Assembly: GCA_014193395.1 (NCBI GenBank)
Contig: BJHT01000004.1
Location: forward strand, 1-64,000
From: Verrucomicrobiota bacterium
Lineage (GTDB): Bacteria > Verrucomicrobiota > Verrucomicrobiia > Limisphaerales > BJHT01
Direction of reading: 5' to 3'
Length of the DNA: 64,000 bases
A program made the translations under genes and the position numbers. The notes under the pieces are model-generated. The model did not search any database. It was not told the origin of the DNA and saw only the letters and a list, made by a program, of their open reading frames with translations. Shown here in pieces: positions 58,477-63,908 of the stretch. Within the stretch, counting starts at the first letter, position 1. The number at the start of each line of letters is the position of its first letter.

Positions 58477-58965
58477 TCAGTGATCGAACACGCGGAAGCG
58501 GCTGCCGGGAATGAGCGGCATCACGTCGCCACCGCTGAAACCGATGTTGGTGTCGGTCGAAAGCATGGAATCGGCGAAGAGGCCGGGGCGATAGTTGTCG
58601 GGATACGGTGGGCGGACGGAGAAAGGCTCGGCTTTGACGCGGGTGCTGGGGTCCATGAAGAACTTGTTCGGCCACTCGTAGTTCTCGTACACCACCGTCG
58701 GGAATGGAGAGGAAACGATCTCGCCCACGCCGATGAGGGTGCGGGCGAGGGTGCGGTGAACGCCGCGGATGGTGCCCACGGTCATGCCGGTCTCGGACCC
58801 TTCCCAGACGGAGGTTTGCTCGACCGAACGGCGGAACTCACCGAGTCGCCCGATCTCCATGACGTTGTTGATTCCGCGGCCCAGCTTGGCCTCCATGCCG
58901 CCGCATCCGGTGAACAGGGCGGCGAACGGAACGAGTGACAACAGGAGTATCAATTGCTTTTGCAT
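58477..58965 (-). CDS. small lipoprotein, exosortase-associated TIGR04073-like
   Basis: A 162-residue lipoprotein. The signal MQKQLILLLSLVPFAALFTG ends in a lipobox with cysteine at about residue 21 (FTGCGG). Then come KLGRGINNVMEIGRLGEFRR and a conserved PTVVYENYEWPNKFFM region. This pattern matches the TIGR04073 exosortase-associated family as I remember it, common in Verrucomicrobiota and Lentisphaerota. Function unknown. It follows tatC by 67 nt and ends at a strong terminator. Confidence 0.75.
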   Translation of the reverse strand: MQKQLILLLSLVPFAALFTGCGGMEAKLGRGINNVMEIGRLGEFRRSVEQTSVWEGSETGMTVGTIRGVHRTLARTLIGVGEIVSSPFPTVVYENYEWPNKFFMDPSTRVKAEPFSVRPPYPDNYRPGLFADSMLSTDTNIGFSGGDVMPLIPGSRFRVFDH

Positions 58966-59032: not shown

Positions 59033-60496
59033 TCACCGGGCTGCGGTTGGCTTCGCTGCTGCCGCCGCCGCGCGCTCCTCGCGTTTGCGATCGCGCCGCT
59101 CCCAATACCACGCGATCCACACGGTGATTTCGTACAGGATCTGGAGCGGGATGGCCATCATGACCTGGGTCAGCACTTCGGGCGTCGTGAGCACCGCGCC
59201 GAGGACGAGGTTGATGACGATCATGTAGCGGCGGAAGCCGGCGAGCATCCGGTAGTTCAACACGCCGAGTTTCACGAGCACGAGAATCACGACGGGCATC
59301 TCGAAGCCCAGCCCCATGCCGAGCATGAATTTGCAGACAAACGAGATGTAGTCCTCCGCGGTCCACTGATCGGCGGAGATACCCAGCCACTGCGAGTACT
59401 TGGCGGACGCATCGAGCGCGAGCGGCATGAGTTTGAAATAGCAAAAGGAGACGCCGCCGAGGAACAGCACGACCCCGGCCACGAATCCGCGCATGAGATA
59501 GTGCTTTTCATTCAGCTTCAGTGCGGGGAGCAGAAACTGACCGATGAAAAAAATCAGGAACGGAGACGCCAGCACGATCCCCCCGTAGATCGCGAGCTGG
59601 AAGGCGACAATGAACCCACCGGCTGGCCGCAGATTGAGCAGCTCGCGCATGTCTGATTTTGCGGCCGCCGGAGGGTTGGTGGTGGGCACGAACGCCAGAA
59701 AGGTGTTCGACCCAAACGTGATCGGCCGCAATTCCACTGCGACGCGAGGATTGGTCCCGAAGTTTAAGGTCGATTCCGGAGGGGCGGAGAATTTGGCCAG
59801 CACATTGGTTCCGGCCATCACGACCAGCACTTGATTGGTGTTCAGGCTCTCGTTCCGGTCGGCAGATTTTTTCAGCGGCCATTTGATCACTTCCATCAGG
59901 TGATCGCCCGCCGCGAGACAGATCACCATGCCCACAATCGTTGCCACCACACACTTGATGAGCACCCAGCGGAAGTCCTCCAGATGCTCCAGGAATGGCT
60001 TGACCGGCCCGCCGCCTTCGTCCTCCTCCTCGGTCACGGGTTCGTTTGGCAACGACGGCGGGGGCGTGTAGGCGGTCTGGTGGAAATCGTCGTGATGGTG
60101 CGGCGGATTCAGCTCCTGATGGTGCTGGGGATCGTAGTCGTGATAGTGATCGTGGTAATGCTCGTTGTAGGGATCTTGCTCGATATGATGCGCCGGGTCG
60201 ATCACCGGCTCGACCGTGGAAGGAGTGGTCGGTGCAACGACCGGCGTCAGGGAGTGCTGATCCGTTGGCGGCGAACTTGCTTCCACACCCGCTGAGACAG
60301 GTGCTGCGGCTGGATTGGCACCAATAGGTTCTGTAGCCGCGGACAGAGAAACCGGCGCGACCCCGCCGGGGGGAGAGGTCACCGCGCCACCCGGAGGAAC
60401 TGCCGGAAGCGGGGTGGGAGAAGAAGCTGCCGAACTAACCGTAGAGTTGCCGGAAGCGGGACGTTCTAGCTTCGCCTCCTCGGGCTCATTGGCCAT
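59033..60496 (-). CDS. tatC: TatC with long Pro/His-rich N-terminal extension
   Basis: A 487-residue Sec-independent translocase subunit TatC, about 230 residues longer than usual. Residues 1-160 are Pro/Ala/Ser-rich with a His-rich stretch at about 103-139 (12 His in 37 residues). The TatC core starts at KPFLEHLEDFRWVLIKCVVA with its conserved glutamate, and the first periplasmic loop is also enlarged. Later blocks include FIGQFLLPALKLNEKHYLMR, a conserved FEMPVVILVLVKLGVLN and a C-terminal basic tail (WERRDRKREERAAAAAAKP). With TatA it exports folded proteins. It lies downstream of the two tatA genes. Confidence 0.9.
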   Translation of the reverse strand: MANEPEEAKLERPASGNSTVSSAASSPTPLPAVPPGGAVTSPPGGVAPVSLSAATEPIGANPAAAPVSAGVEASSPPTDQHSLTPVVAPTTPSTVEPVIDPAHHIEQDPYNEHYHDHYHDYDPQHHQELNPPHHHDDFHQTAYTPPPSLPNEPVTEEEDEGGGPVKPFLEHLEDFRWVLIKCVVATIVGMVICLAAGDHLMEVIKWPLKKSADRNESLNTNQVLVVMAGTNVLAKFSAPPESTLNFGTNPRVAVELRPITFGSNTFLAFVPTTNPPAAAKSDMRELLNLRPAGGFIVAFQLAIYGGIVLASPFLIFFIGQFLLPALKLNEKHYLMRGFVAGVVLFLGGVSFCYFKLMPLALDASAKYSQWLGISADQWTAEDYISFVCKFMLGMGLGFEMPVVILVLVKLGVLNYRMLAGFRRYMIVINLVLGAVLTTPEVLTQVMMAIPLQILYEITVWIAWYWERRDRKREERAAAAAAKPTAAR

Positions 60497-60517: not shown

Positions 60518-60805
60518 TCAAGCCTTGGGGGCGGAATCCGTCTTGTGTGGCTCGGTCGTGGCGTTGGCCACCGCCTCCGGCCGCTGGACCGGCCGTTGCG
60601 GCGGCGGGGGGGGTGATACCGGTTCTTCCAACGACCGATGCAACTCGCTGGTGATGTCAGTCGAAGCTTTCTTGAACTCTTTGATGCCCTGTCCCAGACC
60701 GCGGGCCAATTCGGGCAGCTTCTTGGCGCCAAACAAGATCAAAACCACGGCGAGAATCAGCACCAATTCCCAGCCCCCGATGAAACCTGCGAAAATCGTT
60801 GTCAT
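60518..60805 (-). CDS. TatA/TatE-type protein, longer paralogue
   Basis: A 95-residue Tat pore component. The N-terminal helix [20 protein letters not shown] and the hinge [20 protein letters not shown] match TatA/E. The C-terminal half is Pro-rich ([20 protein letters not shown]), unlike its shorter neighbour. Located between the 59-residue tatA and tatC, so a paralogous pair feeds one TatC. Confidence 0.9.
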
Positions 60806-60823
60806 AAGCTCTGTTTGTTGGTG

Positions 60824-61003
60824 TTAAACCTTCGGCCCCTGATCGTCAGTGGAGGCCTTCTTGAATTCCCGGATGCCCTGTCCCAAACCACGCGCCAGTT
60901 CGGGCAGCTTCTTGGCACCAAACAGGATCATGACAACCGCCAAGATGAGGACGAATTCCCACCCGCCGATAAACGCGGCGAGGACTTGAGGATTAATGTT
61001 CAT
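60824..61003 (-). CDS. short TatA/TatE-type protein (59 aa)
   Basis: The minus-strand frame encodes MNINPQVLAAFIGGWEFVLI, then [20 protein letters not shown], then [19 protein letters not shown]. It is nearly identical in its helix and hinge to the next gene but lacks the Pro-rich tail. It is intact, with an ATG 61003 and TAA at 60824, and lies 62 nt downstream of the pal stop. A recent duplication is likely. Confidence 0.9.
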   Translation of the reverse strand: MNINPQVLAAFIGGWEFVLILAVVMILFGAKKLPELARGLGQGIREFKKASTDDQGPKV

Positions 61004-61064
61004 GGTGGGTGAAGCTAGACCTCATCCATCGCCAAGTAAAGGGGCTATTCCAGTGCTGCACGTT

Positions 61065-61787
61065 TTACTGGCGGGGCATCAGGACGATGAACTCGCCGCG
61101 GCGGTTTTTGGACCACGCCGCTTCGTTGTGGCCGTTATCCACGGGGCGATCAAAGCCGTAGCTGATCGTGCGAATGCGGGAGGCTTGGATGCCCAGGCGC
61201 ACCAGATACTCGCGAACCGCCAAGGCCCGGCGTTCACCCAGCGCACGATTGTATTCTTCGGTCCCGCGCTCGTCGCAGTGGCCCTCGATGAGGAGCTTGT
61301 TGGGCAACGCGGTCTTCATGAAGGCGGCCACCGCTTCGATTTTGCTGCGCTGCTTGTCTTTGATGACGGCGCTGTCGAAGTCGAAGAGGATGGTGTTGTT
61401 TTTGAACAGCGAGGCATCCTTGAGCATCCCCTCGAAGTCCGCGCGTTCGGCGGTCGAAATCCCGGTACCAGTTCGACGGGTGTTATCAGTCCCGCCGGGG
61501 GTCACATCGACTGCTGAAGGAGGTGGGAATGGCGGAACCTTGGTGCCGTCCGTGTTCGTGTAGGTCGGCGGAGGCGGGCTGGGGCGAACGTTGGTCGGTG
61601 GCGTATAGTTCCCGGTACTCGGGGTATAGGTGGCCTTCGGGGGGGTATCGTCCACGATCCCGGTACCAGTCTTCCCGGCACCACCCGGAATGGGAGTCAA
61701 ACCTTTCGTGCGCGAGCGGCAGCCAGTGGTCGCCACGGTGAAAATCAAGCCCACCGCCAGCAGTTTCAGCAGATCAAAACGTTTCAT
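61065..61787 (-). CDS. pal: peptidoglycan-associated lipoprotein, OmpA-like
   Basis: A 240-residue lipoprotein starting at ATG 61787. The lipobox lies in FTVATTGCRSRT. A long Pro/Thr-rich linker precedes the OmpA-like peptidoglycan-binding domain (SLFKNNTILFDFDSAVIKDK and LIEGHCDERGTEEYNRALGE, with ERRALAVREYLVRLGI). It anchors the outer membrane to peptidoglycan and works with TolB. It follows tolB by 25 nt. Confidence 0.92.
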   Translation of the reverse strand: MKRFDLLKLLAVGLIFTVATTGCRSRTKGLTPIPGGAGKTGTGIVDDTPPKATYTPSTGNYTPPTNVRPSPPPPTYTNTDGTKVPPFPPPSAVDVTPGGTDNTRRTGTGISTAERADFEGMLKDASLFKNNTILFDFDSAVIKDKQRSKIEAVAAFMKTALPNKLLIEGHCDERGTEEYNRALGERRALAVREYLVRLGIQASRIRTISYGFDRPVDNGHNEAAWSKNRRGEFIVLMPRQ

Positions 61788-61812
61788 GTGAGAAAAAAGT
61801 ACCGGGATTATG

Positions 61813-62988
61813 CTATTTGGCCCAACTCGGCTGGGAACAGTTTCCCGAAAGTTGGGCGACATCCTTGACCTGTTTGGAAAACACGTCAAGTAAAGACAAG
61901 TACCGCCGTCCGTTTTTCCGGCGCGTGAAGACGACGTTGCGGGAATTGGGCGCCCAAGACGGATCTTCACCCGTGATGATGGTGGTCGCGACGCCGCCCT
62001 CGGCGGGAACCAGGCACAGCTCAAACTCCGCGCGCTGGCAGGTGAAAATAATGAACCTGCCGTCCGGCGACCAGTCCGGCTCCGTGGGGTTGATCGCGCC
62101 GTCGATCGCAATCCGGTGGGCGGAACCGCCGTTGACCGAGACCTTCATCAGCGAGCGGCGTTCATTCACTTTTGCGGCATAACAAATCCACTGGCCATCC
62201 GGCGACCAGCACGGGGACGATTCCTCCTCCGGGGTGAAGGTCAGTTGCTTGAGGTTGGCACCGTTCAGGTCAGCTATGTAAATATCCGGGCTGCCACCTT
62301 TGCTAAGTACCATGGCTAGTTTGCCCGTAGTAGAAATAGCCGGGCTGGTATTTAATCCCGAATAATTTGCAACGACCGCGCGCTTACCACTGGCCAGATC
62401 GTGATAGAAGATATCGGGGTTATCATGCTTATAGGACACATAATATAACAATCCCCGCCCCGGAGCCCAGGTAGGAGCAGCTATCAAGTTATTATCCTGA
62501 GTTACCTGGATGGCATTGTGACCATCATAGTCGGCGACATAGACCTCGCTGGTCCTATCTAGTTCGGCCTTGAAAGCTATCTTAGTCTGCGCGATGCCCT
62601 TCAGTCCGGTTAGTGTAAATAACACATCATCCGCCAGCGCGTGAGCCTGGCTGCGCACGTTGGCTCCTTTGTAGGCCCTGGCCAGCAGGGAGGTTTGGCT
62701 GCGGCTGCTCAGACGTCCTTCGAGACCGCCGGCGTTGAGCGTGCCAGTGAGAGTATAGAGTGCGGTGTCAGGCGCGGTGATCTTGAAGCCGGCTAGTTCC
62801 AGATCGAACCTGAGCACCGACGCGACCTCTGTAGGAAAGCCGGTCAAGGCGATAGGTGTCAGTCGGGACTGCCCGAACACCGTTACGTTCTGAACTGGCG
62901 CAGCAGCAACTCCCGGAATCACCACGAGATAGGGAGCCAGCAGCAATCCAGAGAGCGCCAAACTGCGCGCACACAAAGCGAAATTCAT
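61813..62988 (-). CDS. tolB: periplasmic beta-propeller protein TolB
   Basis: A 391-residue periplasmic protein. Signal peptide LALSGLLLAPYLVVIPGVAA, then the N-terminal TolB domain (FPTEVASVLRFDLELAGFKI), then the propeller (SPCWSPDGQWICYAAKVNER, EPDWSPDGRFIIFTCQRAEF, DPSWAPNSRNVVFTRRKNGR). It bridges the TolA complex and Pal during cell-envelope constriction. It overlaps the upstream TonB/TolA gene by 4 nt. Confidence 0.92.
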   Translation of the reverse strand: MNFALCARSLALSGLLLAPYLVVIPGVAAAPVQNVTVFGQSRLTPIALTGFPTEVASVLRFDLELAGFKITAPDTALYTLTGTLNAGGLEGRLSSRSQTSLLARAYKGANVRSQAHALADDVLFTLTGLKGIAQTKIAFKAELDRTSEVYVADYDGHNAIQVTQDNNLIAAPTWAPGRGLLYYVSYKHDNPDIFYHDLASGKRAVVANYSGLNTSPAISTTGKLAMVLSKGGSPDIYIADLNGANLKQLTFTPEEESSPCWSPDGQWICYAAKVNERRSLMKVSVNGGSAHRIAIDGAINPTEPDWSPDGRFIIFTCQRAEFELCLVPAEGGVATTIITGEDPSWAPNSRNVVFTRRKNGRRYLSLLDVFSKQVKDVAQLSGNCSQPSWAK

Positions 62989-63908
62989 CCGAGCAGTCTT
63001 TTCGCTTTGAGGTTGAAATCAATGATAAACGTCCGCTCCTTCTCTTTATCCGCGGGCGGAAACGGCGCGACCACTTTCACGCCGCGCAGCGCGCTCTGGA
63101 TGGACTTGTCGAGCGCGGCCTTGCCGGACGATTTGGTCAGCCGCGCGTCGGTCACGCGCCCGTCCCGCCCGATGGTGACGGTCGCCTGCGCGACGATGCC
63201 CGAGTCGGCCACGTCCTGCGGCACAATCCACGCAGCTTGGTAGAGTGCCACCACCAGCAATCCGTAATCCGCGGTGGCCTCATTGCTGGCACCGTCGCTG
63301 GTCCCGACTGCGGTCGAGTGCGCGAGGTTTCTTTGGAGATTGGCAAGCACGTCGGACACCCGACCAACTGCGGGGTGCTGAACTTGATGGGCTTGAGCCA
63401 GATGACCCGTGTCAAGCTTGGTGGCGGGTTTGGTAGCCGACTTCTCGCCGCCCCGGACTTTGAGGTTTTCAAGGGAGACCTTGACCGACGGTTTTGTCCC
63501 CGCCGAAGCGATCGGGATGGTCTCCGCCCCGGGGACCGGGCGGACCACCTCCGTGAGCTTTACCGGCACCGGCGAAATTTTCTTCGTGACCGGCGGCGAG
63601 TCTGGCGTTGGCGCAGGCTTGGGTGGCTTGACCTCGGCGAGCGGAGGTTTGGGTGTCGGTGGCGCGGGCAGCGGATCCACCACCGGTTTCACCTCGACCT
63701 GCGGCACCGGCGGACGAGGCAGCGGGGGCGTCCCCGTTTTGGTCCGGAGCAAGCTCTCAATGTTCGCCGCCGAGATAAACTCAGCCGGCCTCACGACCTC
63801 CACCTTGTCGCGCGACCGAAACGCGGCTCCAAACAAAACGCTGCACAGCAACAGACCGTGCAATCCACCCGAGGCCAGCAGGCATTTTTTTTGCAACGGA
63901 TTCATCAT
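62985..63908 (-). CDS. TonB/TolA-like energy transducer
   Basis: A 307-residue protein with an N-terminal membrane anchor (KKCLLASGGLHGLLLCSVLF), a Pro-rich spacer (residues ~55-120, PPLPRPPVPQVEVKPVVDP) and a C-terminal TonB domain (GIVAQATVTIGRDGRVTDAR and TKSSGKAALDKSIQSALRGV). It transmits proton-motive force from the ExbB/TolQ-ExbD/TolR motor to TolB/Pal. Its ATG overlaps the stop of the upstream exbD/tolR. Confidence 0.88.
   Translation of the reverse strand: MMNPLQKKCLLASGGLHGLLLCSVLFGAAFRSRDKVEVVRPAEFISAANIESLLRTKTGTPPLPRPPVPQVEVKPVVDPLPAPPTPKPPLAEVKPPKPAPTPDSPPVTKKISPVPVKLTEVVRPVPGAETIPIASAGTKPSVKVSLENLKVRGGEKSATKPATKLDTGHLAQAHQVQHPAVGRVSDVLANLQRNLAHSTAVGTSDGASNEATADYGLLVVALYQAAWIVPQDVADSGIVAQATVTIGRDGRVTDARLTKSSGKAALDKSIQSALRGVKVVAPFPPADKEKERTFIIDFNLKAKRLLG

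Follow-up and report, generated by a model that had tools for sequence, protein, structure and literature searches.

The window, by which we mean the whole 64,000-nucleotide stretch of DNA that was analysed, carries on its minus strand a gene for TatC that directly follows two tatA-like genes. The features that we refer to throughout are the following.

59033–60496, minus strand: tatC, 487 amino acids, stop included (ORF translation; Pfam TatC; TIGR00945)
59036–60001, minus strand: TatC core with the transmembrane helices, residues 166–487, KPFLEHLEDFR first (profile, alignment, AlphaFold2)
59633–59842, minus strand: predicted beta-stranded insert in periplasmic loop 1, about residues 219–288, ~70 amino acids (AlphaFold2)
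60002–60496, minus strand: N-terminal extension, residues 1–165, predicted to be disordered, opening with MANEPE as short-form TatC does
60071–60205, minus strand: His/Tyr/Asp/Pro cluster, residues 98–142, the conserved island of the extension, with low dN
60137–60175, minus strand: DPYNEHYHDHYHD, residues 108–120, the local version of DPYH[DE]xYH (motif statistics, genome scans)
60518–60805, minus strand: tatA-like gene, 95 amino acids, 21 nt upstream of tatC (Pfam TatA_B_E, E-value 7.5e-21)
60824–61003, minus strand: second tatA-like gene, 59 amino acids (Pfam TatA_B_E, E-value 1.3e-18)

The Pfam TatC domain (PF00902), the only Pfam domain in the 487-residue protein (which has no ankyrin repeat), spans residues 170–450 with an E-value of 9e-54 and 182.8 bits against a cut-off of 25.1, and the NCBIfam model TIGR00945 scores 144.8 bits, above its cut-off of 132.7. 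The KPFLEHLEDFR block, which lies before TM1, is the signal-peptide site, and K166, F168, H171, E173, D174 and R176 within it are invariant in an alignment of 69 sequences from the order. AlphaFold2 modelled the core with pLDDT mostly above 90; the closest solved structures are all TatC (4b4a, 4hts and 9e02), with Foldseek TM-scores of 0.88 and 0.86 against 4b4a and 4hts, respectively, normalised by target length. The loop-1 insert is modelled as strands at residues 223–228, 231–237, 251–261, 264–272 and 285–287 (pLDDT 82–96), and its size is very variable in the phylum, the insert being absent in L184 and L188–L191 and clearly longer in family f64. Genes for Pal (OmpA-like), TolB-like and TonB-like proteins, recognised from their ORF translations, precede the tat genes on the same strand, and by those translations 60518–63908 (minus strand) is a tol-pal/tat neighbourhood. 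Downstream of tatC, 58477–58965 (minus strand) encodes a match to TIGR04073, an exosortase system-associated protein family.

A sequence-only reading of the window had singled out an extension of some 160 residues ahead of KPFLEHLEDFR, with 12 histidines in residues 103–139 or thereabouts. Both points held up: the extension is about 165 residues long, and residues 103–139 (HHIEQDPYNEHYHDHYHDYDPQHHQELNPPHHHDDFH) contain exactly 12 His, together with 4 Tyr and 6 Asp. At a background of 2–2.5% His, at least 12 His in 37 residues has a binomial probability of ~1e-11, or ~1e-8 over all positions of the protein; in the TatC core, His makes up 0.9% of residues. The pLDDT of residues 1–160 was 39–52 in the AlphaFold2 model, which points to disorder. 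On the opposite strand (59831–60295, plus strand), the frame antisense to the cluster would encode a hydrophobic peptide resembling a membrane helix (VEIVVMVRRIQLLMVLGIVVVIVIVVMLVVGILL), which we attribute to the CAY, TAY and GAY codons of the sense strand and do not regard as a gene.

If translation began at a downstream start, the extension would be an untranslated leader behind a mis-called start codon, as the sequence-only reading had allowed. We ruled this out on four grounds. Short TatC proteins of the order begin with MADEPE... or MATEPE... and continue directly into EEEGGPVKSFLEHLEDLRW, whereas long ones begin with MANEPE followed by the extra residues; long and short forms thus have the same start, after which the extra residues look to have been inserted. 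The first methionine is almost invariant among 69 aligned homologues. Between the tatA stop and the tatC ATG lay a median of 23 nt in both long (n = 31) and short (n = 58) loci, whereas the core began 516 nt after that stop in long loci and 84 nt after it in short ones. Finally, comparison of the extension with that of the congener G001 gave a dN of 0.133 and a dS of 0.411 (dN/dS ~0.32), and the gaps were in frame. Taken together, these comparisons establish the extension as translated. A separate peculiarity of reading frame occurs in a subclade of family f2 (L142, L041 and L145), in which a Lys/Ala-coding repeat is inserted right after MSKEPEG of tatC. In L142 (1167–1420) the start frame stops at a TAA, with the His/Tyr cluster and core in a shifted frame and a GTG a few bases past the TAA, which suggests re-initiation or a frameshift; in the sister loci L039 and L149 tatC is uninterrupted.

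Our survey covered Verrucomicrobiota, in particular the order of the window species (Limisphaerales-type Verrucomicrobiota, or Verrucomicrobia subdivision 3), and TatC was found in 91 of 97 genomes. Contrary to the prospect that relatives might lack it, the extension is present in the congener (G001/L002) and in 12 other families of the order; the long form thus occurs in 13 families, and most other families are without it. On a tree of 94 TatC cores, which was built by a quick search and leaves the direction of gain versus loss undecided, long and short forms switch 9–10 times, with at least 4–5 of these switches forced by well-supported branches. The largest number of histidines, up to 20, was in L035 (HHDPHHDPHHDP...). 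Two oddities emerged along the way. L191 (family f52) has a short N-terminal tail with a pure HSHSHSHSH run (MADEPEDQHYHSHSHSHSHPQVEEEDGEGGPV), the sole case resembling a classic metal-binding tail, and L072 (CAMAUZ010000012.1, titled Akkermansia muciniphila) carries the TatC of the congener at the same contig position as in G001 and is probably misnamed.

Within the extension, conservation is concentrated in the cluster. Between the window species and its congener, dN was 0.036 for residues 108–145, compared with 0.157 for residues 1–97 and 0.060 for the core, although in most other pairs it is the core that is the more conserved. In 11 of 11 long-form pairs, which are not all mutually independent, the 40-residue window with the lowest dN of the extension was the His/Tyr window, below both flanks. 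For L038 and L042, identity was 0.82 in the cluster versus 0.32 and 0.61 in the flanks, and in L031 and L153, the sole Tyr-only pair available, it was 78% in the knot of tyrosines versus 55–57% in the flanks. This pattern of substitution demonstrates selective constraint on the extension. Synonymous changes were also distributed unevenly in the window species, affecting 3 of 41 unchanged residues in the cluster (60071–60205) versus 101 of 271 in the core, and a low cluster dS recurs in several other pairs, though not in all.

What the cluster conserves is foremost its tyrosines. Every long form, with His or without it, has Tyr in its cluster, and Tyr accounts for 158 of 1240 cluster positions versus 31 of 3780 flank positions. 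Clusters from four of the 13 long-form families (f12, f13, f46 and f5) have only 0–2 His (0–7 in the whole extension) and retain 4–7 Tyr. The constancy of Tyr amid Asp and Glu in all long forms would suit phosphorylation by a bacterial tyrosine kinase that regulates export, a reading that we consider highly improbable, given that the data contain no hint of a kinase and that the abundance of His would be left unexplained.

The residues of the cluster, moreover, come in a preferred order, with the consensus DPYH[DE]xYH. DPY was present in 21 of 30 extensions compared with 2.3 expected from shuffling, and [DN]P[YWF] in 22 of 30 compared with 3.6; in C-terminal tails, [DN]P[YWF] was present in 16 of 37 (2.8 expected). 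YH was enriched (71 versus 37 in shuffled sequences) and HY depleted (17 versus 36), and Y-x3-Y inside the cluster was enriched as well (39 versus 16). TatA tails from the same loci, which served as a control, had no enrichment of [DN]P[YWF] (2 of 144). Shuffling ignores shared ancestry, but at the family level [DNS]P[YWF] was found in 13 of 17 representatives, in agreement with the other counts. By these statistics, the order of the motif is specific beyond composition.

The same statistics bear on metal, which the sequence-only reading had the extension sensing or binding. A cytoplasmic tail that captures Ni, Zn, Cu or Fe through its His/Asp/Tyr cluster might buffer or sense the metal or hold metalloprotein precursors, and the His content (12 in 37 residues here, more in L035) invites this idea, as does the His-rich tail of mycobacterial GroEL1 (DHDHHHGHAH), which binds Cu(II) in vitro (PMC10170517). 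In clusters that have His, its conservation equals that of Tyr (0.76 versus 0.77), with each replacing the other, so a metal role is conceivable in those lineages. The remaining comparisons favour another reading, because the four nearly His-free families nonetheless keep the Tyr knot, HxH, the customary spacing of His-rich metal tails, is depleted in the clusters (43 observed versus 75 shuffled), and the cluster has no Cys. We therefore regard a metal-binding tail as an unlikely explanation of the arm as a whole; particular lineages may have added metal binding to it.

The motif appears to belong to TatC. Searching for DPYH[DEQH]xYH as a DNA pattern returned six matches in 384 genomes, of which five lay in TatC and the remaining one in a tiny frame. 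With the looser pattern YH[DE]xYH, every low-complexity, acidic, coding match in 146 genomes of the order was TatC; the other matches, which fell in structured proteins, in non-coding DNA or in a repeat in G071, were discarded. The segment itself, searched against the window's own genome at E-values up to 10, retrieved TatC alone, in a search whose first pass scores few candidates, and a search of the order with a 35-residue consensus missed known TatC cases and was set aside for the DNA patterns. Across the genomes searched, these scans show the motif to be essentially confined to TatC. We also considered a co-evolving TatA tail as its partner and rejected it: TatA tails did not differ systematically between long and short operons. 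Some TatA tails (e.g. L043 and L019) have DDPYHxPP or Y..PP right behind the amphipathic helix, and Y..PP occurred in 15 of 144 TatA tails compared with 3.6 expected, a weak lead.

Both the N and the C terminus of TatC are cytoplasmic, and similar segments occur at the C-terminal end. In f64, another family of the class, the N-terminal tail is ordinary (~20 residues before the core), and in several genera the C-terminal tail bears a segment of this kind, for example SYEDPYHDSYHDSYHDSWH (L168), DYHDAYHDHDHEHDEYHSH (L221), HDPYHDYHSQYH (L166) and DSYHDDEYHHEHDPYYHPDH (L229); the remaining members, of a family that includes a 387-residue group that we take to be Akkermansia-like, have plain acidic C-terminal tails. 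Family f81 has an acidic C-terminal tail with WDNxxYNPW, and that of f133 is acidic and Tyr-rich. L051 and L052 (family f33) have a short N terminus and acidic C-terminal tails of 170–280 residues with a common Tyr motif (AYHPYAEAIKNS and GYQPYLEALENS, respectively). A segment of this kind recurs on either end of TatC, and its presence at the other terminus in a separate branch of the phylum suggests a real, hitherto undescribed docking device and speaks against a stretch that became His-rich by chance.

Recurrence at the other terminus also bears on whether the cluster has any function. CAY, TAY and GAY codons are one base apart, such that slippage and drift could have grown functionless His/Tyr/Asp repeats; the low complexity of the region, its patchy phylogeny and the prevalence of His-to-Tyr replacement, the commonest change of His, are all as such neutral growth would have them. 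It would not, however, account for a cluster whose dN in the window species is lower than the core's and which lies conserved between fast-evolving flanks in every pair compared, or for the order of the motif, its near-restriction to TatC and its appearance on either end, and we judge it improbable.

We propose, with a confidence just short of even, that the extension is a disordered acidic–aromatic arm for docking, placed where the TatC trimer opens to the cytoplasm and serving to capture signal peptides or a targeting partner. We infer the cytoplasmic location of the arm from TatC topology, and its docking role and the identity of its partner by analogy. The trimer and the location of its cytoplasmic sites have been described (PMC13323110, PMC3712464, PMC13186574), and crosslinks in E. 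coli place the TatC N terminus in contact with precursors (PMC3712464), at a site that the end of the arm adjoins. Each trimer would present three arms, 25–60 residues ahead of the site at which twin-arginine signal peptides are read, each arm carrying repeats of a short linear motif (DPYH[DE]xYH) in which acidic residues combine with aromatic ones or His. Acidic and aromatic residues of the tethered arm would then most likely dock in a multivalent fashion with the RR and hydrophobic parts of a signal peptide, or else with a putative targeting partner, and the captured precursor or partner would be passed to the adjoining receptor site of TatC. His would be exchangeable within the motif, its presence varying by lineage, although its conservation on a par with Tyr is not predicted by a model of purely aromatic docking; where His abounds, metal or pH may also act on the arm. 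Since most families in the order have no arm, basic transport does not require it.

The trimer offers a further possibility, in which Tyr, His and Asp act as 'stickers' that cluster TatC trimers or form a membrane condensate, gathering TatA and substrates. Three copies per complex (PMC13323110), a multivalent low-complexity composition of aromatic and acidic residues, predicted disorder, and the use of condensates in chloroplast Tat sorting (PMC8740050) would all be in keeping with such self-association. Yet the order-specific DPYH[DE]xYH favours a defined binding site over clustering driven by composition, and the strong acidity of the cluster would drive its copies apart unless something bridged them, making self-association a distinctly unlikely role.

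Extending the docking reading beyond the window species, we raise as a doubtful but real possibility that Verrucomicrobiota repeatedly built an N- or C-terminal substrate antenna onto TatC, a disordered acidic–aromatic arm whose DPYH-type motif catches twin-arginine precursors or a dedicated partner and is gated by metal or pH in His-rich lineages. If so, no receptor arm of a bacterial Tat translocase would have been described before it. In line with the sequence-only reading, which knew of no such TatC, we found no description of an extended TatC in the open-access literature, and a 2013 survey of TatC diversity mentions neither extensions nor histidine. It is an open question how precursors reach the Tat receptor and by what means TatA is recruited, and nature supplies an experiment in which the role of the arm is directly testable: related species that have or lack it, or that carry it in a Tyr-only or a His-rich version.

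The window protein resembles known TatC (PF00902; 4b4a, 4hts, 9dzz, 9e02 and 9e03) in its core fold, its cytoplasmic N terminus, the LEHLxDxR that opens TM1 and its linkage with tatA-like genes. Periplasmic loop inserts, too, are found in the TatC of two species in the 2026 paper on the core complex, which describes the TatC trimer, those of N. salsuginis and M. xanthus (PMC13323110). It differs in its 165-residue arm with the Tyr/His/Asp motif: in chains from E. coli and N. salsuginis and in those of the Aquifex type, alignment to the core begins within about the first 8 residues, so these proteins have no long cytoplasmic arm.

HypB and SlyD have His-rich metal tails. That of mycobacterial GroEL1, whose peptides bind Cu(II) (PMC10170517), is likewise of this type; as with the TatC arm, a machine that handles proteins carries a stretch of low complexity built of His and Asp. 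In the TatC arm, by contrast, the constant is Tyr, in the order DPYH[DE]xYH; some lineages are without His, which is not kept in 4 of 13 families, and HxH is depleted rather than above what composition predicts.

A parallel to the proposed role is offered by STT1 and STT2, the targeting factors of the plant chloroplast Tat pathway, which combine disorder with acidic and hydrophobic or aromatic motifs (PMC8740050). Their disordered region engages twin-arginine signal peptides, with the acidic WEEPD motif of STT1 and the hydrophobic motif of STT2 binding the RR and the hydrophobic core (PMC8740050). STT1 and STT2 are separate ankyrin proteins found in seed plants only, whereas here the region is built into TatC and would bind signal peptides by analogy. 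As in the STT proteins, the TatC arm is, according to AlphaFold2, composition and motif statistics, a disordered acidic–aromatic segment.
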